Of a DNA stretch of 64,000 bases, positions 51,396 through 62,451 are shown one piece after another. Position 1 is the stretch's first letter; the number at the start of each line of letters is the position of its first letter. The translations under genes and the position numbers were made by a program. The stretch comes from Phycicoccus sp. M110.8 (GTDB taxonomy: Bacteria; Actinomycetota; Actinomycetes; Actinomycetales; Dermatophilaceae): assembly GCF_032464895.1 (NCBI RefSeq), contig NZ_JAWDIC010000003.1, positions 62,001-126,000 on the forward strand, read 5' to 3'. The notes under the pieces were generated by a model that saw nothing but the letters and a program-made list of their open reading frames with translations, ran no database searches and had not been told where the DNA came from.

Positions 51396-51893
51396 TCAGA
51401 AGAGCCGCTGGGCGCGGGTCTCCTCGGACTCCTCGAGGGCGAGGAGGAACCGCTTGCGGTCCAGTCCCCCGGCGTAGCCGACCAGGCTGCCGTCGGCGCC
51501 GATCACCCGGTGGCAGGGCACGACGATGGCGATCGGGTTGCGGCCGTTGGCGAAGCCGACCGCCTGGCTGAGGTTGACGTCGCCCAGCGCGCGGGCGAGG
51601 TCGCCGTAGGAGCGGGTCTGGCCGTAGGGGATCTCGCGCAGCAGGGCCCACACGCGCTGCTTGAACTCGTCCCCGCGCGGGGCCAGCGGCAGGTCGAAGT
51701 CGGTGCGCTCGCGGGCGAAGTACTCGGTGAGCTGGCGGACCGCCTCGGCCCCGGCCGCGTCGTCGCGCTCCCCCAGCTCAGCGGGGTCCGGCGCGTGCTT
51801 CTGGCTGTAGGTCATGACCCGGGTGACCGCGCCGTCCTGCGACACGATCGTCACGTCGCCGATCGGCGACGGCATGACGGTGTGGGTGGGCAC
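51396..51893 (-). CDS. ogt: Methylated-DNA--protein-cysteine methyltransferase
   Basis: About 165 residues. The acceptor cysteine is in IVVPCHRVIG; GYAGGLDRKRFLL and the helix-turn-helix region EFKQRVWALLREIPYGQTRSY are all present. It removes alkyl groups from O6-guanine by a suicide reaction. Starts at GTG 51893 or 51911 are both open and neither has a good ribosome site. It follows the HIT gene by about 50 nt and may be the end of the lipid/light operon. Confidence 0.92.
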   Translation of the reverse strand: MPTHTVMPSPIGDVTIVSQDGAVTRVMTYSQKHAPDPAELGERDDAAGAEAVRQLTEYFARERTDFDLPLAPRGDEFKQRVWALLREIPYGQTRSYGDLARALGDVNLSQAVGFANGRNPIAIVVPCHRVIGADGSLVGYAGGLDRKRFLLALEESEETRAQRLF

Positions 51894-51950
51894 GAGCCGA
51901 TTGTGTCGCACGGCACCGACAGCGCGGGACTGCCCGACGCCGGTCCCGGT

Positions 51951-52379
51951 CTACCCGGCAGGCGGCTCGATCGCGGCTGCCAGCCGGGCGGCATACTCCT
52001 GCGCCTCCTCGTCGGAGGCGTAGCGGGTGCGCGGCCAGAAGAACCCGCGCAGGCCGTCCCCCTTCGTCCGGGGCACGACGTGCCAGTGCAGGTGCGGCAC
52101 CGACTGGGAGACGACGTTGTTGGCAGCGACGAACGACCCCTGGGAGCCGAGGCCCACCGGCATCGCCGCGGCCGTGCGCTGCACCGCCCCCATCAGCGTG
52201 GGCAGCAGCTCGCGCGGCAGGTCGGGGAGGGTGTCGACGTGGACCCTCGGCACGAGCAGGACGTGGCCCTTGAACAGGGGCCGCGTGTCCAGGAAGCCGA
52301 GCACCAGCGGCTCGTCGAGCACCGTGAAGGACGGCACCGCGCCGTCGACGATCCGGCAGAAGAGGCAGTCGTCGGGCAC
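51951..52379 (-). CDS. HIT family nucleotide hydrolase
   Basis: 142 residues. The histidine triad is PHLHWHVVPR, with an N-terminal CLFCRIVDG zinc-type pair. Such proteins hydrolyse AMP-linked nucleotides. The GTG at 52379 gives the usual family start (VPDDCLFCRI). It begins 10 nt after the DUF1295 stop, so it is probably on the same transcript. The connection to lipid chemistry is unknown. Confidence 0.9.
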   Translation of the reverse strand: MPDDCLFCRIVDGAVPSFTVLDEPLVLGFLDTRPLFKGHVLLVPRVHVDTLPDLPRELLPTLMGAVQRTAAAMPVGLGSQGSFVAANNVVSQSVPHLHWHVVPRTKGDGLRGFFWPRTRYASDEEAQEYAARLAAAIEPPAG

Positions 52380-52389
52380 GCGAGCGACC

Positions 52390-53208
52390 CTATCCCCGCT
52401 CGGCTCCCGGAGCCCGGCGCGGCGGCCGGGGCAGGAAGTAGCTCGTCCGTTGCTGGTACTCGCGGTAGCCGGGGCGCTCGGCCATGTGCCGCTCGAGCAG
52501 CTTGGCACCGGTGCCGTAGACGAGGAAGTAGGTCATGACGACGGGCGAGAGCACCGTCAGCACCCCCGGCCACGCGCTGGCCGCAACGAGGAACAGGCCC
52601 CACCAGACGCTGGAGTCGCCGAAGTAGTTCGGGTGGCGCGTCCAGGACCACAGGCCGCGGTCCATGACCTTGCCCTTGTTCGCGGGGTCGGCCTTGAAGC
52701 GCGCGAGCTGGGCGTCGCCGACCGCCTCGAAGCTGACGCCGAGGAGCCAGAGCAGGACACCGACGACCGCGACCCACACCACTCCGTCGCCGGCCGCCGC
52801 ACTGACTTGCAGCGGCAGGGAGACGAACCACAGCGCGGCGCCCTGCACGGCGTAGACCTTGCGGATCGCGACGAGGGTCGGGTTGCCGCTCTCCTTCTCG
52901 AGCATCTCGGCGTAGCGGGGGTCCTCCCCCTTGCCGGCGTTGCGGCGGGTGACGTGCCAGGCGAGCCGCAGCCCCCACACAGCGACCAGCACGAGCACCA
53001 GCACCCGGCGCCAGCCGGCGCCGTCGCCGACGAGCGCCGAGACCAGGGCGACCAGGACGAACCCCAGCCCCCAGGTCGTGTCGACGACGCTCACCCGGCC
53101 CTGCCGGTGCCCCACGACCGCGGTGACGGCCATCAGCAGGACGAGGGCGAGCAGCGACGAGCCGGTGACCGCCCAGAAGCTCCCGAGGTCGAAGCCCATC
53201 CCGCTCAC
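52390..53208 (-). CDS. DUF1295 membrane protein (steroid-reductase-like fold)
   Basis: 272 residues with about six or seven membrane segments and the conserved C-terminal block LWSWTRHPNYFGDSSVWWG, also found in isoprenylcysteine methyltransferases and 5-alpha-reductase-like proteins. The GTG at 53208 overlaps the preceding stop (GTGA); an ATG three codons later is possible. Last of the five tightly overlapping genes. It may reduce a double bond in a modified fatty acid, which is an inference from the fold and the neighbours. Confidence 0.85.
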   Translation of the reverse strand: MSGMGFDLGSFWAVTGSSLLALVLLMAVTAVVGHRQGRVSVVDTTWGLGFVLVALVSALVGDGAGWRRVLVLVLVAVWGLRLAWHVTRRNAGKGEDPRYAEMLEKESGNPTLVAIRKVYAVQGAALWFVSLPLQVSAAAGDGVVWVAVVGVLLWLLGVSFEAVGDAQLARFKADPANKGKVMDRGLWSWTRHPNYFGDSSVWWGLFLVAASAWPGVLTVLSPVVMTYFLVYGTGAKLLERHMAERPGYREYQQRTSYFLPRPPRRAPGAERG

Positions 53209-54530
53209 GACCACCCGCCGGGGCGGACCGGCTCGACGTCGGACCGGCCGGCCGCTCCGGGACGCACGGCGAGGATCTGGTCGACCCCCATGCGTCCGTC
53301 GCGGAACGCCATCGACCCACCCACGAGGTAGAGCCGCCAGACGCGGGCGATCTCCTCGCCGACGAGGGCCACGGCACGGTCCCAGTTGGCCTCGAACGTG
53401 TCGTGCCACGCGTCGACCGTGCGGACGTAGTGCTCGCGCAGGGCGTGCACGTCGCGCACCTCGAGGCCGGACTCCTCGATCAGCGCGACCGTGTCGCCCA
53501 CCGGCCGCATGTGCATGTCGGGCGCGATGAACTGCTCGATGAACGGTCCCCCGCCCGGGTGGCGCCCCCGGCGCGACATCTGCTGGACGAGGACCCGGCC
53601 GCCGGGCCGGACGGCGTCGTGCAGGACCCTGGCGTAGGTCGGGTAGTTCCGCTGGCCGACGTGCTCGCCCATCTCGAGCGAGACGACGGCGTCGAAGCCG
53701 GTGTCCGGGACGTCGCGGTAGTCCTGCAGCCGGATCTCGACCCGGTCCTGCAGGCCCCGCTCGCGGATGCGGGCGTCGATGAATCGCTTCTGCTCGGCGG
53801 CGATGGTGACGCCGGTGACCTGCGCGCCGAAGTGCTCGGCGGCATACAGGCTCATCGATCCCCAGCCGCACCCGACGTCGAGCAGCCGCGAGCCCTCGCG
53901 CAGGCCGAGCTTGTGGCCCACGAGCTCGAACTTGTCGCGCTGGGCGTCCTCGACGGTGTAGTCCGGGTCGTCGGAGCGCCAGTAGCCGCACGAGTACGCC
54001 AGGTGCGGGTCGAGGATCAGCTGGTAGAAGTCGTTGGACAGGTCGTAGTGGTGCGAGATCGCGGCCCGGTCGCGGCGCAGGCTGTGCAGCCGGCCCTTGA
54101 CGACCGCCTGGCTCGCGGGCGGGGGCAGCGGGCGCCCGAGGACGCCGGCGTTGCGGGCGAGCCGCACCACCCCGGCCGCCACCGACGGAGTCGGCCGTAT
54201 GCCGCTGAGCCCGCGCTCCTGCGCCACCGACCACACGTGCGTGAGGGCATGGTCGAGGTCGCCCTCGACGTCGAGCTCCCCCGTGACGTACGCCTGCGCG
54301 GCGCCCAGCTCGCCGGGGTGCCGCAGCAGCCGGCGCAGGGCGCGCGGTGACCGGACGACGACCCGGGGCGCGTCGACCGGGCCGGCGCTGCTGCCGTCCC
54401 AGAGGGTGAGGTGGACCGGGAGCTCCCCGCCCACGACCGGGGCGAGCGCCTCCGCGAACTGGCCTGCGAGGCCCGAACCTCTTGCGGCAGAACGCGACTC
54501 GGGTGCGCGGGGGGAGTCGAGCGTGGTCAC
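53205..54530 (-). CDS. Cyclopropane-fatty-acyl-phospholipid synthase family methyltransferase B
   Basis: 441 residues. SAM site LDVGCGWGSMSLYAAEHF, the phospholipid-binding HHYDLSNDFYQLIL and HMRPVGDTVALIEESGLEV fit the CFA synthase/mycolic methyltransferase family that methylates double bonds of membrane lipids. An N-terminal ~110-residue domain precedes the catalytic core, as in classical Cfa proteins. GTG start overlapping the first CFA gene (GTGA). It differs clearly from its neighbour and so may add methyl groups at a different stage or position. Confidence 0.9.
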   Translation of the reverse strand: MTTLDSPRAPESRSAARGSGLAGQFAEALAPVVGGELPVHLTLWDGSSAGPVDAPRVVVRSPRALRRLLRHPGELGAAQAYVTGELDVEGDLDHALTHVWSVAQERGLSGIRPTPSVAAGVVRLARNAGVLGRPLPPPASQAVVKGRLHSLRRDRAAISHHYDLSNDFYQLILDPHLAYSCGYWRSDDPDYTVEDAQRDKFELVGHKLGLREGSRLLDVGCGWGSMSLYAAEHFGAQVTGVTIAAEQKRFIDARIRERGLQDRVEIRLQDYRDVPDTGFDAVVSLEMGEHVGQRNYPTYARVLHDAVRPGGRVLVQQMSRRGRHPGGGPFIEQFIAPDMHMRPVGDTVALIEESGLEVRDVHALREHYVRTVDAWHDTFEANWDRAVALVGEEIARVWRLYLVGGSMAFRDGRMGVDQILAVRPGAAGRSDVEPVRPGGWS

Positions 54531-55861
54531 GCGGTCACCTCCCGGCGGAAGACGAGCTGCTGGACGTCGAGGTAGCCGGAACGGAACCCAGCCTCGGAGT
54601 ACTGCAGGTAGAAGTGCCACATCCGGTCGAACACCTCGTCGAAGCCGAGCCGGTGGACAGCGTCGAGGGCGCCGAGGTAGCGCTCGTCCCACAGCCGCAG
54701 GGTCTCGGCGTAGTGGCGGCCGAACGACAGGCGCTCGGTGAGCCGGAGCCGCGTGTGCTCGCGGGTCACGTCGGCGAGCGCCTCGGTGGAGGGCAGGAAC
54801 CCGCCCGGGAAGATGTACTTGTTGATCCAGGTGTAGGTGTTGCGGGTCACCAGCATCCGGTCGTGGGGCATGGTGATCGCCTGGATCGCGACCGACCCAC
54901 CGGGGGCGAGGACCCGGTCGATGGTGCGGAAGTAGTCCTTCCAGTACTGGTGGCCGACGGCCTCGATCATCTCGACCGAGACGACGGCGTCGAACTCGCC
55001 CTGGACGGCGCGGTAGTCGAGCAGCTCGACGTCGACGCGGTCGGAGTAGCCCGCCGCCGCGACCCGCGCGCGCGCCAGCTCCTGCTGCTCGCTGGACAGG
55101 GTGACGGTCAGGACCGTGGCACCGCGTGCTGCCGCCCGGATGGCGAGCTCCCCCCAGCCCGAGCCGATCTCCAGCACCCTCGTGCCGTCGCCGACCCGCG
55201 CCGCGTCGAGGATGCGGTCGATCTTGCGCTCCTGCGCCACGCGCAGGTCCGGCCAGGTGGGGGCGGTCGGCGCGGGGCTGACGAGGGCCGTCTCCCCCGA
55301 CACCGACGCGACCCGCTGGGCCGGCGCGTCGAACAGCGCGGACGAGTAGGAGAGCGTGTCGTCGAGGAACGTCGCGAACAGGTCGTTCGAGAGGTCGTAG
55401 TGCCGGGCGATGTTGCTGCGCGTGTTGCGGGTGGTGTTGCGCTCGCTCGAGGGGTGCCGCGCGACGTAGAGGGCGCGCAGGCGCTGCAGCGGCGCCGGGA
55501 TGAGGGTCGCCATCTGTGCCGCGAACACCTCGAGCAGGCCGGCGAGGTCGGGCGAGTCCCAGTCGCCGGCCATGTACGACTCACCGAACCCGATCAGCGC
55601 CTTGGAGCCGACGGCTGCGTAGAAGGCCTCGGGGCGGACGAGGCGCATGACGGGTGCACCCGGGTCGTGGGCGCCGCCGCCGAAGACCTGGTCGCCGGCC
55701 TCCACCCGGACGGCCAGCCGCTTCACGGCTGAACGGAACAGCTGCCGGGCCACTGCCGACTCCACGCCCCTGCGCACCTTGGCGCGGGAGGCGGCGAGGT
55801 CCGGCCAGCGGACCGGGTCGATGGTCGGGCGGGACGCGAGGACGGGGTCTGCGGTGGTCAC
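54527..55861 (-). CDS. Cyclopropane-fatty-acyl-phospholipid synthase family methyltransferase A
   Basis: 444 residues. SAM motif LEIGSGWGELAIRAAARG, substrate region ARHYDLSNDLFATFLDDTL, the catalytic-type VSVEMIEAVGHQYW and the C-terminal FFYLQYSE-like HFYLQYSEAGFRSGYLDV match the CFA synthases that lie beside amine-oxidase and DUF1365 genes. Insert VASVSGETALVSPAP precedes the SAM site. GTG start overlaps the DUF1365 stop. In proteobacterial relatives of this gene set the enzyme methylates unsaturated fatty acids under singlet-oxygen or light control. Confidence 0.92.
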   Translation of the reverse strand: MTTADPVLASRPTIDPVRWPDLAASRAKVRRGVESAVARQLFRSAVKRLAVRVEAGDQVFGGGAHDPGAPVMRLVRPEAFYAAVGSKALIGFGESYMAGDWDSPDLAGLLEVFAAQMATLIPAPLQRLRALYVARHPSSERNTTRNTRSNIARHYDLSNDLFATFLDDTLSYSSALFDAPAQRVASVSGETALVSPAPTAPTWPDLRVAQERKIDRILDAARVGDGTRVLEIGSGWGELAIRAAARGATVLTVTLSSEQQELARARVAAAGYSDRVDVELLDYRAVQGEFDAVVSVEMIEAVGHQYWKDYFRTIDRVLAPGGSVAIQAITMPHDRMLVTRNTYTWINKYIFPGGFLPSTEALADVTREHTRLRLTERLSFGRHYAETLRLWDERYLGALDAVHRLGFDEVFDRMWHFYLQYSEAGFRSGYLDVQQLVFRREVTA

Positions 55862-56589
55862 TGGACGGCCTCCTGGTGGTGCGGGGGTCGGGGTTGGACG
55901 GGCAGCCGGCGCAGCCAGAGCCGGATGCCGTGCAGGCGGATCCGGGCCATGACGGCCAGCGGTTCGAGCGGTTGGGTGAGGGCGAGGCGGAGCACCGAGC
56001 GGGTGGTCACAGGCACCGCGACACCGGTCATGCTGGCCACGAACGGGTCGTGGCCCCGGCGGTGCAGCACGACCTGGACGTGCAACCGGTCGTCCGGCTC
56101 GGGGACGGTCAGGGAGTAGCGCCCGGAGACGTCGTTGAAGGGCGAGACGTAGAGCGCCTTGTCGACCTCGGCGCGGCCGCGCTCGTCGGGCCGGACCAGG
56201 TACGCGTGCCGGTCGCCGTACGTGTTGTGCACCTCCACGACGGTGGCGACGTGGCGGTCGTCCCGGTCGTGGCACCAGTGGATGCTGATGGGGTTGAAGA
56301 CGGTGCCGAGCACCCGGGGCATGGCGAGCATCCGGATCCGGCCGCCCTGCAGGTCGATCCCCTGCGTCGCCAGGAAGGTGTCGAGGTTCTGCCGCAGGCT
56401 GCGGTGCGGGTCGCCGAGGTGGTCCCGGGACTCGAACCGCGCCAGGGGCGCGAGGACCCCGAGCTGCGGCAGGTCGTCCAGGTCCACGAGCCAGGTGTGG
56501 CTGCGGTGGGCGAACCGGTGCCGCAGCGGCGAGGTGCGGGCGTGGCGGATGCTGGTGCGGTAGATCCGGGTGCCCCGACCCGGCCTCAC
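55858..56589 (-). CDS. DUF1365 protein
   Basis: 243 residues. Landmarks are IYRTSIRHARTSPLRHRFAH, the highly conserved VLGTVFNPISIHWCHD and VHNTYGDRHAYLV, and PFNDVSGRY. The family has no proven activity but nearly always stands between an FAD amine-oxidase-like gene and a CFA synthase gene, as here. GTG start, overlapping both neighbours by GTGA. Probably binds or modifies an acyl chain in the same pathway; this is context inference. Confidence 0.88.
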   Translation of the reverse strand: MRPGRGTRIYRTSIRHARTSPLRHRFAHRSHTWLVDLDDLPQLGVLAPLARFESRDHLGDPHRSLRQNLDTFLATQGIDLQGGRIRMLAMPRVLGTVFNPISIHWCHDRDDRHVATVVEVHNTYGDRHAYLVRPDERGRAEVDKALYVSPFNDVSGRYSLTVPEPDDRLHVQVVLHRRGHDPFVASMTGVAVPVTTRSVLRLALTQPLEPLAVMARIRLHGIRLWLRRLPVQPRPPHHQEAVQ

Positions 56590-57929
56590 GAACCCACCGC
56601 CGCCGGCACGACATCGCCGTCCGGGTCGGCGTGCCGCCTGCGGGCGTCGCTCGGAGTCGCGGACCACTCGGCGCCCAGCACGCGGGCCGCCTCGACGCCG
56701 GAGCGCGCTCCGTCCTCGTGGAAGCCCCACCCGTGGTAGGCCCCGGCGAACGCGATGCGCGAGGAGTTGATGTGGGGCAGCTTGCGTTGCGCGGCAACGG
56801 ATTCCGGCGTGTAGAGCGGGTGCTCGTAGTGCATGGTGTCGATGACGAGTGCGGGGTCGACACAGTCCACGCCGTTCAGCGTGACGAGGAACCGCGGGCC
56901 GGGCACGTCGATGCGCTGCAGCCGGGTGAGGTCGTAGGTCACGAGGACACCCGCTCCGTCGCGCTCGGGCCGCCGCCAGTAGTTCCACGAGGCCCGGGCG
57001 CCGGCACTGCGCGGCAGCACCGACTCGTCGGTGTGCAGCTGGGCGACGTTGGAGGAGTAGGGGATCGCGCTCAGGACCTCGCGCTGGAGGTCGGTCGGCT
57101 CGCCGAGCAGCGACAGCGCCTGGTGGGGGTGCGTCGCGACGACCACGCGGTCGTAGACCTCACGCCCACCCGTGGCGTCGTCGACCACGACACCGTCCTC
57201 GCGCTCCACGACAGAGGTCACAGGGGTTCCCACGCGGACGTCGTCGAGCCGGGCGGCGAGGGCCTGCACGTAGCGCGCCGACCCACCGACGACCGTGCGC
57301 CAGGTCGGGGACCCGAAGACGGTCAGCATCCCGTGGTGGTCGAGGAACTCGAACAGGTACCGGGCCGGGTACCGCAGCGACACGGTGGGGTCGCAGGACC
57401 ACACCGCGGCGACGACCGGCTCGAGGAAGTGGCGGGCGAAGTAGTCGCTGAACCGCACGCGGGCGACGAACTCGCCCAGGGTCTCGTCGCGCCTGGCGTC
57501 GTCGTCTCCCCGTGCCAGGACGGCACGGGCGGCGCGGTGGAACCGCTTCACCTCGACGAGCATGCGCAGGTATGCCGGGTCGGTGGCGTTGCGCGCCGTG
57601 GGGAACAGGCCACGGGCACCCTTGGCCCCGGCATACTCCAGCCGCGCAGCGTCGTCACGGATGGACATGCTCATGTCCGAGTCCTGCGTCTGGACCCCGA
57701 GCTCGGCGAACAGCCGCAGCAGCGTCGGGTACGTGCGGTCGTTGTGGACGATGAAGCCGGTGTCGACGCCGACGACCCGGTCGCCGACGGTGACGTCGTG
57801 GGTGTCGGCGTGACCGCCGAGCCGGGGGTCGGCCTCGTACAGGGTCACCGGCCCGCTCTGGGCGAGGACGTGCGCGGCGGCGAGGCCGGCGATGCCGCTG
57901 CCGACCACCGCGCTGCGTGCTCCGGACAT
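56586..57929 (-). CDS. FAD-dependent amine-oxidase-like oxidoreductase
   Basis: 447 residues. N-terminal FAD motif AVVGSGIAGLAAAHVLAQ with YEADPRLGGHADTH, and late FAVA-type contact IAFAGAYHGWGFHEDGARSG. This NAD(P)/FAD amine-oxidase subgroup (GFIVHNDRTYP motif) accompanies DUF1365 and CFA synthase in many bacteria and probably oxidises an acyl chain rather than an amine. The ATG at 57929 is the first of the operon. Divergent from the B12 regulator 512 nt away. Confidence 0.9.
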   Translation of the reverse strand: MSGARSAVVGSGIAGLAAAHVLAQSGPVTLYEADPRLGGHADTHDVTVGDRVVGVDTGFIVHNDRTYPTLLRLFAELGVQTQDSDMSMSIRDDAARLEYAGAKGARGLFPTARNATDPAYLRMLVEVKRFHRAARAVLARGDDDARRDETLGEFVARVRFSDYFARHFLEPVVAAVWSCDPTVSLRYPARYLFEFLDHHGMLTVFGSPTWRTVVGGSARYVQALAARLDDVRVGTPVTSVVEREDGVVVDDATGGREVYDRVVVATHPHQALSLLGEPTDLQREVLSAIPYSSNVAQLHTDESVLPRSAGARASWNYWRRPERDGAGVLVTYDLTRLQRIDVPGPRFLVTLNGVDCVDPALVIDTMHYEHPLYTPESVAAQRKLPHINSSRIAFAGAYHGWGFHEDGARSGVEAARVLGAEWSATPSDARRRHADPDGDVVPAAVGS

Positions 57930-58348
57930 CAGGGGGCCTTTCGTAGGGGGCGTCGCCGGGAGTTCGGCGTGCGCACCGCCCCGGATTGGGTCCGGGAGGC
58001 CGCCGAGCACGAGCCCCTCTCACCGGCAGTCGCCAGGACGGCGACCGACGAGGGGGCGGGACACGAGGAGACGGGACACGAGGAGGGGCGGCACGGACGG
58101 GCGGCGCAGGAGCGGGCCGCGCGTCGCGGCACCGTCGCAGGGCGGACGGGCGCGGCCATGGGCGTCATCCTGTCAGCCGGGAGCCCATCCGGCAGAGCGA
58201 CGCCGCCGTCTGCCCCCTGCGCACGCAGACGGTCGGCGACGCCGCGGCGCCTGGCCGGGGCTGCGGCCCGGCTCCGGGATCCCGTTGAGGGATGGACGGG
58301 ACAGGACCCCGGAGCCGGACACGACCTTCGGTGGAACTCGAACCCCGG

Positions 58349-58366
58349 TGTACAACCCCTGTCCAA
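58349..58366. promoter_or_regulatory. Putative CarH/LitR operator, site 1
   Basis: TGTACAA at 58349 and TGTCCAA at 58360, start to start exactly 11 bp. As I recall, CarH-type tetramers bind 11-bp direct repeats through their MerR domains. The site lies 76-93 nt before the regulator start, on the side of the lipid operon. Confidence 0.55.
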
Positions 58367-58402
58367 GGTTCGCCCTTGAAGCATGCGCTTCCTTCCCCGT
58401 GA

Positions 58403-58420
58403 TGTCCAGACTTTGTCCAA
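58403..58420. promoter_or_regulatory. Putative CarH/LitR operator, site 2
   Basis: TGTCCAG at 58403 and TGTCCAA at 58414, again exactly 11 bp apart, ending 21 nt before the regulator start. It would fit autorepression. TTGTCC at 58413 may itself be a -35 element. Confidence 0.55.
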
Positions 58421-58441
58421 TCCTGAGGGTAACCTCCGATC

Positions 58442-59368
58442 GTGCACACCATCGGCCACACGGCCTGGCTCACCGGCGTCCCGGTCGCCACGCTCCGGGC
58501 GTGGGAGCGCCGCTATGCCGTGGTGTCGCCCGCCCGGACGCCGGCCGGCTACCGGCTCTACGACGACCACGCCGTGCGGACGCTCACCGCGATGGCGGCG
58601 CTCGTGGCGGCGGGCTGGTCTCCCCGTGACGCCGCCGACCACGTCGTCGGCTCCGTCGGCGACTCCGTGGTCGGGCCGGACGCGCCGCACCGAAGAGTGG
58701 AGGAGCACACGGTCACCACCGGGCGCCCCGGCCCCGAGCTGCCGGGGATGGACACCTCAGCCCTGTCGAGGGCCGCCGCGGCCCTGGACCCGCGGATGGC
58801 CGAGTCGGCCCTCGACGAGGCGTTCGCCGTCGCCGGCCCGGAGCAGGCCGTCGACGGGTGGCTGCTGCCCGCCCTGCGGGTCCTGGGCGAGGACTGGAGG
58901 GCCGGCCGCGTGGACGTGGCCGGCGAGCACCTCGTGAGCGCTGCCGTGCAGCGCCGGCTCGGAGCCGCCCTCGACGCCACCGGCCCGCAGGGCGGCAGTC
59001 CGCAGGTGGCGGTCGGCCTCCCCCGCGGCGTCCGGCACGAGCTGGGCGTCACGGCATTCGCCCTCCTGCTGCGGCGGGCCGGCCTCGAGGTGGCCTATCT
59101 CGGGGCGGACGTGCCCCCGGAGTCGTGGGCGGTGGTGCTGCGGCACCACGCCCCCTCCGCCGTGGTGCTGGGGGTCCCGGCCACGGACGACGTGGCGGCT
59201 GCCCGCGAGGCGGTCGCGGTCCTGGGCGCTGCCGACCCGTCGCCGGCCGTGTACGTCGGGGGGTCGGCGCAGGACGCCGTGGGCGCCGGGACCATCCCGC
59301 TCGGGCACCACGTGCGGTCCGCGGTCGCGCGCCTCGTCCGGGACGTCGAGGGCGCAGCGAACGCCTGA
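58442..59368 (+). CDS. CarH/LitR-type B12-dependent photoreceptor regulator (MerR family)
   Basis: 308 residues. The N-terminal MerR helix-turn-helix is HTAWLTGVPVATLRAWERRY with the wing RTPAGYRLYDDHAV. The C-terminal half is a methionine-synthase-type cobalamin-binding pair: a four-helix cap with W152-x9-E162-H163 (DWRAGRVDVAGEH), the motif of light-sensing CarH, and a Rossmann part with RHELGVTAFALLLRRAGLEV, whose His199 would be the lower ligand of cobalt. The usual acidic residue of the DxHxxG motif is Val197 here. In the dark, adenosylcobalamin favours the DNA-binding tetramer; light breaks it. It probably represses itself and the divergent lipid operon. Confidence 0.88.
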   Translation: MHTIGHTAWLTGVPVATLRAWERRYAVVSPARTPAGYRLYDDHAVRTLTAMAALVAAGWSPRDAADHVVGSVGDSVVGPDAPHRRVEEHTVTTGRPGPELPGMDTSALSRAAAALDPRMAESALDEAFAVAGPEQAVDGWLLPALRVLGEDWRAGRVDVAGEHLVSAAVQRRLGAALDATGPQGGSPQVAVGLPRGVRHELGVTAFALLLRRAGLEVAYLGADVPPESWAVVLRHHAPSAVVLGVPATDDVAAAREAVAVLGAADPSPAVYVGGSAQDAVGAGTIPLGHHVRSAVARLVRDVEGAANA

Positions 59369-61806: not shown

Positions 61807-62451
61807 TCAGCCGCCCTCGGCCGCGGCTTCCGCGATGAGGTCCCGCAGCTCGGCGATGGCGCGGTCGATGTCGCCCATCACCTCCCACAGGGGCCCGGAG
61901 TCGCTGGTCGCCCCCTGCGAGAGCGCGCCCGACAGCTTGAGGGTGGCCCCGAACAGCTGCCGGGTCACGATGTCGGTCGTGACGTCCGCGACCCGCCGGC
62001 GCTCACGCTCGACGGCACGGGCCTCCGCCCGGTGTCGCAGCAGCGCCTCGGCGTCGATCCGAGCGGTGATGTCGATGACGTGCTGCAGCACCCCCGTCAC
62101 CTCGCCGTCGACGACGAACGGCGAGCACGAGACCTGCACCTGTCGCACCTGTCCGGCAGCGTCCTCGACGGTGCGGGCGTACTGCCGCTCGGCTCCGGCC
62201 AGAGCCGCCTCGAGGAAGGGGCGGATGCTCTGCCACACCTGCTCCGGCACCAGGGCGCTGACGTGACTGCCACGCACCTCGGCGAGCCGTTCGCGCCCCG
62301 ACTCGCGCAGCGCGAACGCATTGGCGAAGTCGCACCGCAGCTCGCGGTCCCACACCGTCACGCCCGCCGGCAGCAGGTCGAGGACTGCGGCCACCTCCGG
62401 CCCGACCAGTGATTCGGGAGCCTGCGACGCGACCGACCCGGGCTGCCCCAT
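61807..62451 (-). CDS. PAS-domain protein with relic kinase dimerisation helix
   Basis: 214 residues. A PAS fold spans about residues 20-130 (LLPAGVTVWDRELRCDFANA, VLQHVIDITARIDAE). After a charged helix comes ERRRVADVTTDIVTRQLFGA, which aligns with the HisKA_3 phosphoacceptor helix of actinobacterial kinases, but the usual LHD has Thr in place of His. No ATPase domain follows. It may be a sensor that binds partner kinases or acts by dimerisation only. The ATG has a perfect AAAGGAGG. It ends 3 nt from the convergent tetR gene. Confidence 0.75.
   Translation of the reverse strand: MGQPGSVASQAPESLVGPEVAAVLDLLPAGVTVWDRELRCDFANAFALRESGRERLAEVRGSHVSALVPEQVWQSIRPFLEAALAGAERQYARTVEDAAGQVRQVQVSCSPFVVDGEVTGVLQHVIDITARIDAEALLRHRAEARAVERERRRVADVTTDIVTRQLFGATLKLSGALSQGATSDSGPLWEVMGDIDRAIAELRDLIAEAAAEGG

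Follow-up and report, generated by a model that had tools for sequence, protein, structure and literature searches.

A 64,000-nucleotide stretch of the genome of the actinomycete Phycicoccus sp. M110.8 (contig NZ_JAWDIC010000003.1, positions 62,001 to 126,000; "the window" below, numbered from its first letter) holds five coupled genes, predicted to modify membrane lipids, and a divergent gene for a regulator resembling the B12-type photoreceptor CarH. On balance we think it probable that this is a light-responsive furan fatty acid operon, and this is the best explanation of the locus; all such judgements refer to the window and its family, Dermatophilaceae. Furan fatty acids guard membranes against light-made reactive oxygen. 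The observations behind this reading are gene content, order and coupling, conservation among relatives, the clade into which the first methyltransferase falls, operator repeats, and host genes of the desaturase and cobalamin adenosyltransferase families.

From these we infer substrates, products, repression and light response along the following lines. The first methyltransferase (CFA1, UfaM-like) would methylate a cis-unsaturated phospholipid acyl chain, the flavin adenine dinucleotide (FAD) protein (UfaD-like) would introduce a second double bond, and the DUF1365 protein (UfaO-like) would insert oxygen derived from O2, closing a methyl-furan ring that could act as a membrane scavenger of reactive oxygen. 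The second methyltransferase (CFA2) and the DUF1295 protein would add a further methyl group, either onto the furan ring, where a non-orthologous enzyme would do what FufM does, or at a mid-chain position of its own, as a branch that DUF1295 would reduce. In the dark, the regulator carrying adenosylcobalamin would occupy tandem 11-bp repeats and repress its own gene and probably the operon; light would cleave the cobalamin, and the regulator would leave the DNA. The features are:

58442..59368, plus strand: CarH/LitR-like regulator, 308 amino acids, GTG start, with a MerR DNA-binding domain and two B12-binding domains (Pfam MerR_1, B12-binding_2, B12-binding)
58403..58419, minus strand: putative CarH operator, proximal tandem pair of 11-bp repeats, starting 39 nt ahead of the regulator start codon
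58349..58365, minus strand: putative CarH operator, distal tandem pair of 11-bp repeats (minus-strand TnnACA core), starting 93 nt ahead of the regulator start codon
56586..57929, minus strand: UfaD-like FAD amine-oxidase-family protein, 447 amino acids, predicted methylated-acyl desaturase (Pfam PF01593)
55858..56589, minus strand: UfaO-like DUF1365 protein, 243 amino acids, predicted O2-dependent furan-forming enzyme (Pfam PF07103)
54527..55861, minus strand: CFA1, UfaM-like S-adenosylmethionine (SAM) methyltransferase, 444 amino acids (PF02353; tree clade; residues)
53205..54530, minus strand: CFA2, BfaB-like SAM methyltransferase, 441 amino acids (PF02353; groups with the host BfaB-like protein)
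52390..53208, minus strand: DUF1295 membrane protein, steroid-reductase-like, 272 amino acids (PF06966, 253 bits; PF02544, 32 bits)
51951..52379, minus strand: HIT-domain protein, not claimed as part of the pathway (Pfam; neighbourhood)
51396..51893, minus strand: ogt-type O6-alkylguanine-DNA alkyltransferase, not claimed as part of the pathway (Pfam; neighbourhood)

The gene positions and labels that an earlier note had proposed from the sequence alone are all correct, Pfam agreeing with every label, and the overlap it described for the five-gene set is there: GTGA is shared at all four junctions (FAD/DUF1365, DUF1365/CFA1, CFA1/CFA2 and CFA2/DUF1295). The regulator and FAD oxidase genes diverge across a gap of 512 nt; the host genome measures 4.1 Mb.

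Core enzymes and the furan fatty acid pathway

According to PMC7380195, UfaM methylates 18:1 in Rhodobacter sphaeroides and Rhodopseudomonas palustris, UfaD carries out a desaturation, and the furan is made with O2 by UfaO, which belongs to the DUF1365 proteins. The DUF1365 protein of the window matches PF07103 with 234.7 bits (cut-off 25), and its operon has the gene order UfaD-UfaO-UfaM, the R. palustris order being taken from the locus numbers RPA2571-2570-2569 (PMC7380195). In a survey of plasmids, 16 of 95 DUF1365-bearing records were examined, 15 of them annotated, and 11 of these 15 show annotated FAD, DUF1365 and CFA genes one after another; plasmids of Ensifer, Aminobacter and Phyllobacterium have no CFA gene adjoining DUF1365, and on that of Azospirillum thermophilum only a short methyltransferase adjoins it. 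The window's FAD protein is 34-59% identical to the FAD genes adjoining DUF1365 in 11 plasmid records, and its DUF1365 protein 28-57% identical to the DUF1365 proteins of nine. An AlphaFold2 model of the latter (mean predicted local distance difference test score, pLDDT, 91) gave no Foldseek match at E<=0.001, with weak lipocalin/fatty-acid-binding-like hits only (3bdr, E 0.012), and a PDB profile search returned immune-receptor matches only, at E 0.25 or worse.

CFA1 carries S/E/Q/I/Y at E. coli Cfa sites 139/239/266/268/317. Glutamine replaces H266 of Cfa in all 53 aligned CFA1-type proteins (11/11 from plasmids and 42/42 from the family, window included) and serine replaces C139 in 45 of them; C139 and H266 are kept in 4/4 Cfa proteins. 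In a methyltransferase tree of 51 rows (19 of 42 CFA1, 10 of 19 CFA2, 11 plasmid M1, six M2, four Cfa and one BfaB-like), CFA1 and the 11 DUF1365-linked plasmid methyltransferases, alphaproteobacterial ones among them, form one clade (99/98) apart from the four Cfa proteins (99/98); no characterised UfaM is in the tree. Canonical cyclopropane synthesis by CFA1 is unlikely in view of S139, Q266 and this clade. As a source of cis-unsaturated chains, the host has two PF00487 desaturase-family proteins, one of them nearest to the DesA model but below its cut-off.

Judged from sequence, FAD, DUF1365 and CFA1 most likely match UfaD, UfaO and UfaM. Two points tell against the furan assignment: the case for orthology is made from protein family, gene order and a tree whose DUF1365-linked members are uncharacterised, and in one genus (g42) DUF1365 occurs in 15 genomes that gave no PF00487, PF03405 or host-type desaturase hit, the search with host proteins having been run without a positive control. 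The core stands in a row in the four g42 loci fetched (L033, L038, L052 and L054). This genus lends some weight to a different reading, in which the core chemistries (methyl transfer, desaturation, oxygenation) act on another unsaturated lipid, such as a branched monoene or isoprenoid, to give a new oxidised lipid; so do the identity of just 28-36% between the DUF1365 protein and its proteobacterial counterparts and the top NCBIfam model of the FAD protein, hydroxysqualene dehydroxylase HpnE, which scores far below cut-off. We consider such a substrate improbable, given on the other side the two desaturase-family proteins of the host, the grouping of CFA1 with DUF1365-linked methyltransferases, some of them alphaproteobacterial, in one clade, and an Acinetobacter plasmid in which an acyl-CoA desaturase gene lies directly before the same gene set. 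The first three enzymes do not require the undescribed lipid that was suggested earlier and fit the known furan fatty acid pathway; such a lipid is possible only as the product of CFA2 and DUF1295.

CFA2 and DUF1295 as a second module

At the same five Cfa sites CFA2 carries C/E/Q/M/Y. It groups with the BfaB-like protein of the host (100/100, 41% identity), the BfaB-like row being long and its place unsure; the proteobacterial M2 methyltransferases, which are linked to DUF1295, form a separate clade from CFA2 (100/100). The DUF1295 protein is 31-64% identical to nine aligned DUF1295 proteins of plasmid loci. In four loci (L036, L045, L053 and L055) CFA2 and DUF1295 form a unit of their own on the opposite strand, and core and second module are therefore distinct. 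On a Rhodococcus erythropolis plasmid (L084:11000-12311) the operon's CFA2 gene is unannotated and looks disrupted.

The bfaA-bfaB genes of actinobacteria, which serve 10-methyl fatty acids, offer a comparison: CFA2 groups with the host BfaB-like protein, but its partner is DUF1295 and not an FAD-binding oxidase, the PF01565 oxidase lying elsewhere in the genome with a methyltransferase of its own. That bfaA-bfaB-like pair, a PF01565 FAD-binding oxidase and a CfaB-like methyltransferase on host contig 4 (L193:2775-5494), apart from the window operon, likely makes 10-methyl fatty acids. Tuberculostearate (10-methyl) as the main product of the window operon is unlikely because the host has this separate pair.

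CFA2 and DUF1295 may make a mid-chain methyl-branched fatty acid, with a methylene formed by CFA2 and reduced by DUF1295, independently of the furan branch and in place of a dimethyl-furan; to this possibility, which is compatible with a furan fatty acid operon, we give slightly less than an even chance. The kinship of CFA2 with BfaB favours a methyl branch as far as sequence can tell, and the match of DUF1295 to the steroid 5-alpha-reductase family and the separable opposite-strand units agree with it. It is opposed by the unsure placement of the long BfaB-like row, the bfaA-bfaB-like pair that the host already has, and Q/M for H/I at Cfa sites 266/268, unlike the host BfaB-like protein. Moreover, proteobacteria pair DUF1295 with a different methyltransferase next to this core, an arrangement suggesting that DUF1295 has a role connected with what the core makes; the recurrence of DUF1295 as a partner across phyla favours a step on that product. 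The combination of two methyltransferases and DUF1295 is no actinobacterial speciality: on certain plasmids of proteobacteria the core is accompanied by DUF1295 together with a second methyltransferase, which is a different one. The M2 proteins form a compact proteobacterial methyltransferase family (L092:3612-4640 and five similar) found on plasmids beside DUF1295, with a furan-type core in five of six, and are a candidate FufM family.

The CarH-like regulator, its putative operator and their conservation

The regulator scores 98 bits against Thermus thermophilus CarH (5c8d). Residues W152, E162, H163 and H199 are all as previously claimed, the first three forming the Wx9EH motif, and the recognition helix reads RAWERRY (RxWERRY in CarH). 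Wx9EH is kept in 29/29 CarH-like neighbours of family loci, and the axial histidine in 28/28 CarH-like proteins examined. The host has a PF01923 cobalamin adenosyltransferase-family gene, and in five family loci a CbiJ/CobK-family gene lies directly 3' of the regulator (Pfam on one representative). A second CarH/LitR-like gene of the host (G000:C4:488213-488995, L194) is 29% identical.

According to PMC8156234 and PMC9304148, the sites that Thermus and Bacillus CarH bind are tandem repeats of 11 bp, nnnnTnnACAn. Two tandem pairs of this type, which the earlier note had not described, lie at 58349-58365 and 58403-58419 and constitute the putative operator; the repeats were first spotted by eye in the window and then in relatives, and their identity as the reverse complement of the published core was recognised afterwards. 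Of 25 divergent CarH-FAD intervals, that of the window among them, 17 contain an exact pair, with 22 hits in the regulator sense and one antisense, as compared with a mean of 0.07 and a maximum of one in 200 dinucleotide shuffles of the intervals; the three non-divergent intervals among the 28 examined have no pair. With one mismatch allowed, six of the nine same-genus loci that bear CarH have two sites, roughly 39 and 95 nt ahead of the start of the regulator; two of the others have one site and one has none. The host genome as a whole has 13 exact pairs as against eight for a reversed control, two of the 13 being the gap pairs, 54 nt apart, and sites outside the gap are therefore not claimed as CarH targets. 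One operator-like pair on host contig 4 (L191:3042-5269) stands just before an amine-oxidase-family gene, read as protoporphyrinogen oxidase, followed by a chlorite-dismutase-family (HemQ-like) gene; it perhaps concerns haem synthesis and could be chance.

Conservation was surveyed in the window's family, where DUF1365 is present in 119/186 genomes and 37/53 genera, by means of 60 loci (stretches up to 16 kb) from the 118 other DUF1365-bearing genomes, comprising all 10 same-genus loci and a hand-picked spread; related genomes in these counts are not independent. It was also surveyed in named actinobacterial loci, the best 80 of 588 confirmed, with counts by tblastn recount. FAD-DUF1365-CFA1 is consecutive on one strand in 59/60 family loci, the 60th being cut by a contig edge, and stands in a row in 78/80 named loci; the full five-gene row is found in 21/60 and 38/80, respectively, and CFA2 somewhere in the stretch in 29/60 family loci. 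The same locus was found in Pedococcus bigeumensis S9.3A and Phycicoccus sp. Soil802. Of the 119 family genomes, at least 66 have a CarH-like gene no more than 5 kb from DUF1365 and at least 72 no more than 10.4 kb from it; with the core rows this adjacency exceeds chance. Co-occurrence points the same way: at 90 bits 81 family genomes have both DUF1365 and CarH, 38 DUF1365 only, 24 CarH only and 43 neither (p 3e-5), and at 140 bits the figures are 62, 57, 20 and 47 (p 0.004). That regulator and operon are chance neighbours with no functional link is barely credible, even though some genomes have the regulator but no DUF1365 and, among 88 listed genomes with both, the two do not come within 15 kb of each other in 16 (some assemblies being fragmented); set against this are the 72 or more genomes just mentioned and a pair that stays together through different arrangements.

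The earlier note had made much depend on the regulator being kept beside the operon in relatives, and this holds in part. A CarH-like gene accompanies 29 of the 60 family loci, including 8/10 other same-genus loci; an RskA-type anti-sigma gene is found instead in 10, both in none and neither in 21 (Fisher p 0.0009). Among the best 80 named loci the corresponding figures are nine CarH-like, 17 anti-sigma, none with both and 54 with neither, and Wx9EH is present in only three of the nine (L101, L103 and L170), all within the window's family; it is absent from the CarH-like genes of L115, L144, L148, L159 and L176, and no Wx9EH was found in L124. The link to a Wx9EH CarH is a trait of the window's family in the sampled actinobacteria. 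In Nocardia and Antrihabitans (L115, L144, L148, L159 and L176) a MerR-B12 regulator without Wx9EH adjoins the same operon, and a photolyase gene is also near it in L144, L148, L159 and L176. A photolyase gene is near 19/60 family loci, 15 of those 19 having CarH.

Several findings weigh against control of the operon by light through this regulator. The classic CarH motif, D/ExHx2G-x41-SxV/T-x22-27-GG in PMC8156234 and PMC9304148, is incomplete: H199, G202 and GG are kept, but the D/E position two residues ahead of H199 holds V, and G-V-P stands in place of S-x-V/T; the regulator is therefore named CarH-like and not filed as CarH. Against the NCBIfam CarH equivalog NF052513 it reaches 120.8 bits where the cut-off is 400. 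The upper photo-ligand histidine that follows the tryptophan in many, not all, CarH proteins is R153 in the window and is found in 0/28 CarH-like proteins examined; in Thermus CarH this histidine is needed for tetramer dissociation, an earlier contrary report being cited in the same paper (PMC10442372). In the window the operators are 420 nt away from the start of FAD but no more than 93 nt from that of the regulator, and may therefore serve the regulator alone. An exact pair was not found in 8/25 divergent intervals, and a sigma-70-like promoter scan of the gap gave none. Two of the 10 other same-genus loci (L063 and L071) have no CarH-like gene in the stretch, and a Wx9EH-type regulator stands beside the operon in 0/75 named loci not recognised as family records.

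From the operator positions, the degenerate B12 motif, the missing histidine in 28/28 proteins and the lack of a CarH neighbour in 31/60 loci one might conclude that the regulator controls itself alone, or no longer senses light, and that the operon is constitutive or otherwise controlled. We hold this to be rather unlikely. Across loci the repeats stay in the divergent interval, and at some they come close to the FAD gene (some 12 nt from it in L056 and some 150 nt in L031). In L030, a stretch that yielded no CarH gene, FAD is preceded by three tandem operator pairs that overlap one another (L030:10029-10067), and control there may act in trans. The Wx9EH motif and axial histidine are invariant in the proteins examined.

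HIT begins 10 nt past DUF1295, and ogt 57 nt past HIT if its start is at 51893; neither overlaps. HIT is near the core in 10/10 same-genus loci and 0/50 other family loci, ogt in 10/10 and 1/50, and in the 80 named loci HIT is near three and ogt near four. The idea that DNA repair through these genes is linked to light damage is unsupported, and both were rejected as repair partners of the module, being genus-level neighbours among the family loci sampled. In 20/60 loci an NmrA-like dehydrogenase fused to a TspO/MBR domain (L034:3952-5376 and relatives) recurs near the operon. A CAAX-protease-like protein and a small SRPBCC protein are further recurrent neighbours, the latter often between CarH and FAD. 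An HGSNAT-like membrane protein of 405 amino acids (L070:4664-5881 and relatives) is encoded directly before FAD in 7/10 other same-genus loci, in six of the seven between CarH and FAD, and is absent from the window. A PAS_4 protein of 195 amino acids (window 61807-62394) lies 2.4 kb from the regulator; it gave no match to the LOV-like pattern tried, and no genome-wide LOV gene search was made.

Significance and comparison with known systems

If the proposed reading is correct, actinobacteria would gain a light-inducible membrane antioxidant, and B12-type light control in these bacteria would reach beyond carotenoid genes. DUF1365, DUF1295 and the BfaB-like CFA2 would pass from orphan labels to enzymes with testable steps, and CarH-, ChrR- and SigK/RskA-type regulators would be suggested to govern one shared response. 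The CarH-like proteins would also be a naturally occurring clade that lacks the photo-ligand histidine of Thermus, the point on which PMC10442372 differs from the earlier study. The full combination is put forward tentatively, as less likely than not: actinobacterial furan fatty acids controlled by a light sensor of the B12 type, a furan with two methyl groups (or one accompanied by a methyl branch) made by way of a BfaB-derived methyltransferase and a DUF1295 reductase, a CarH-like clade without the bis-histidine photo-ligand, and SigK/RskA-type regulators on the same operon in relatives.

The earlier description of a light-linked membrane-lipid module with proteobacterial kin under ChrR or LitR control is supported by PMC7380195 and PMC9758184. 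The UfaM/UfaD/UfaO (and FufM) pathway of R. sphaeroides and R. palustris, linked to ChrR, shares with the window a DUF1365 protein as UfaO, a SAM acyl methylase as UfaM and the same order (PMC7380195). The window differs in that its operon is actinobacterial, couples five genes by GTGA overlaps and includes DUF1295 and a BfaB-like second methyltransferase; its regulator is CarH-like, where the Rhodobacter/Rhodopseudomonas system has a sigma factor with ChrR. Of the 15 annotated plasmid stretches, 10 carry an extracytoplasmic function (ECF) sigma and an anti-sigma gene (ChrR-named in eight), three a MerR gene, nine DUF1295 and five a photolyase gene; the MerR protein of Azoarcus has Wx9EH, and those of Salinivibrio and Streptomyces do not. 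On the Azoarcus plasmid (L098:4651-5553) the Wx9EH MerR gene is divergent from FAD-DUF1365-CFA, and CarH-type pairing is therefore not confined to actinobacteria.

SigK/RskA-linked operons are found in actinobacteria, mycobacteria included, M. tuberculosis having such a gene row. The Rv0449c promoter and sigK autoregulation are named in PMC7509140. These operons share the FAD-DUF1365-CFA core, with an anti-sigma gene beside it in 10/60 family and 17/80 named loci, and some also have ECF sigma, fasciclin and molybdo-oxidoreductase genes, whereas the window has a CarH-like gene, the two never occurring together in the 60 or the 80 loci. The pmlR1/pplR region of Pseudomonas likewise has a LitR/CarH-family regulator near an FAD oxidoreductase and ufaM, with phrB there too, and ufaM rises 25-33-fold under blue light in P. 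mendocina (PMC9758184); the LitR there, however, is of class II and acts with a LOV protein, whereas the window regulator has the B12-type Wx9EH signature.

In summary, the kind of enzyme and the light control of ufaM in Pseudomonas (PMC9758184) are already known; apparently new is a CarH-like, operator-bearing actinobacterial version that alternates with RskA-type regulators and includes a BfaB-like second methyltransferase, neither this version nor CarH beside furan fatty acid genes in actinobacteria being among the matches listed from open PMC text (subscription journals were outside the scope). With CarH of Thermus thermophilus, Bacillus megaterium and Myxococcus the regulator shares MerR and B12 domains, RxWERRY, Wx9EH, the axial histidine and a tandem 11-bp TnnACA operator (PMC8156234, PMC9304148). 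It differs from them in lacking two classic B12-motif positions and the upper photo-ligand histidine, and in neighbouring a lipid operon, not carotenoid genes.

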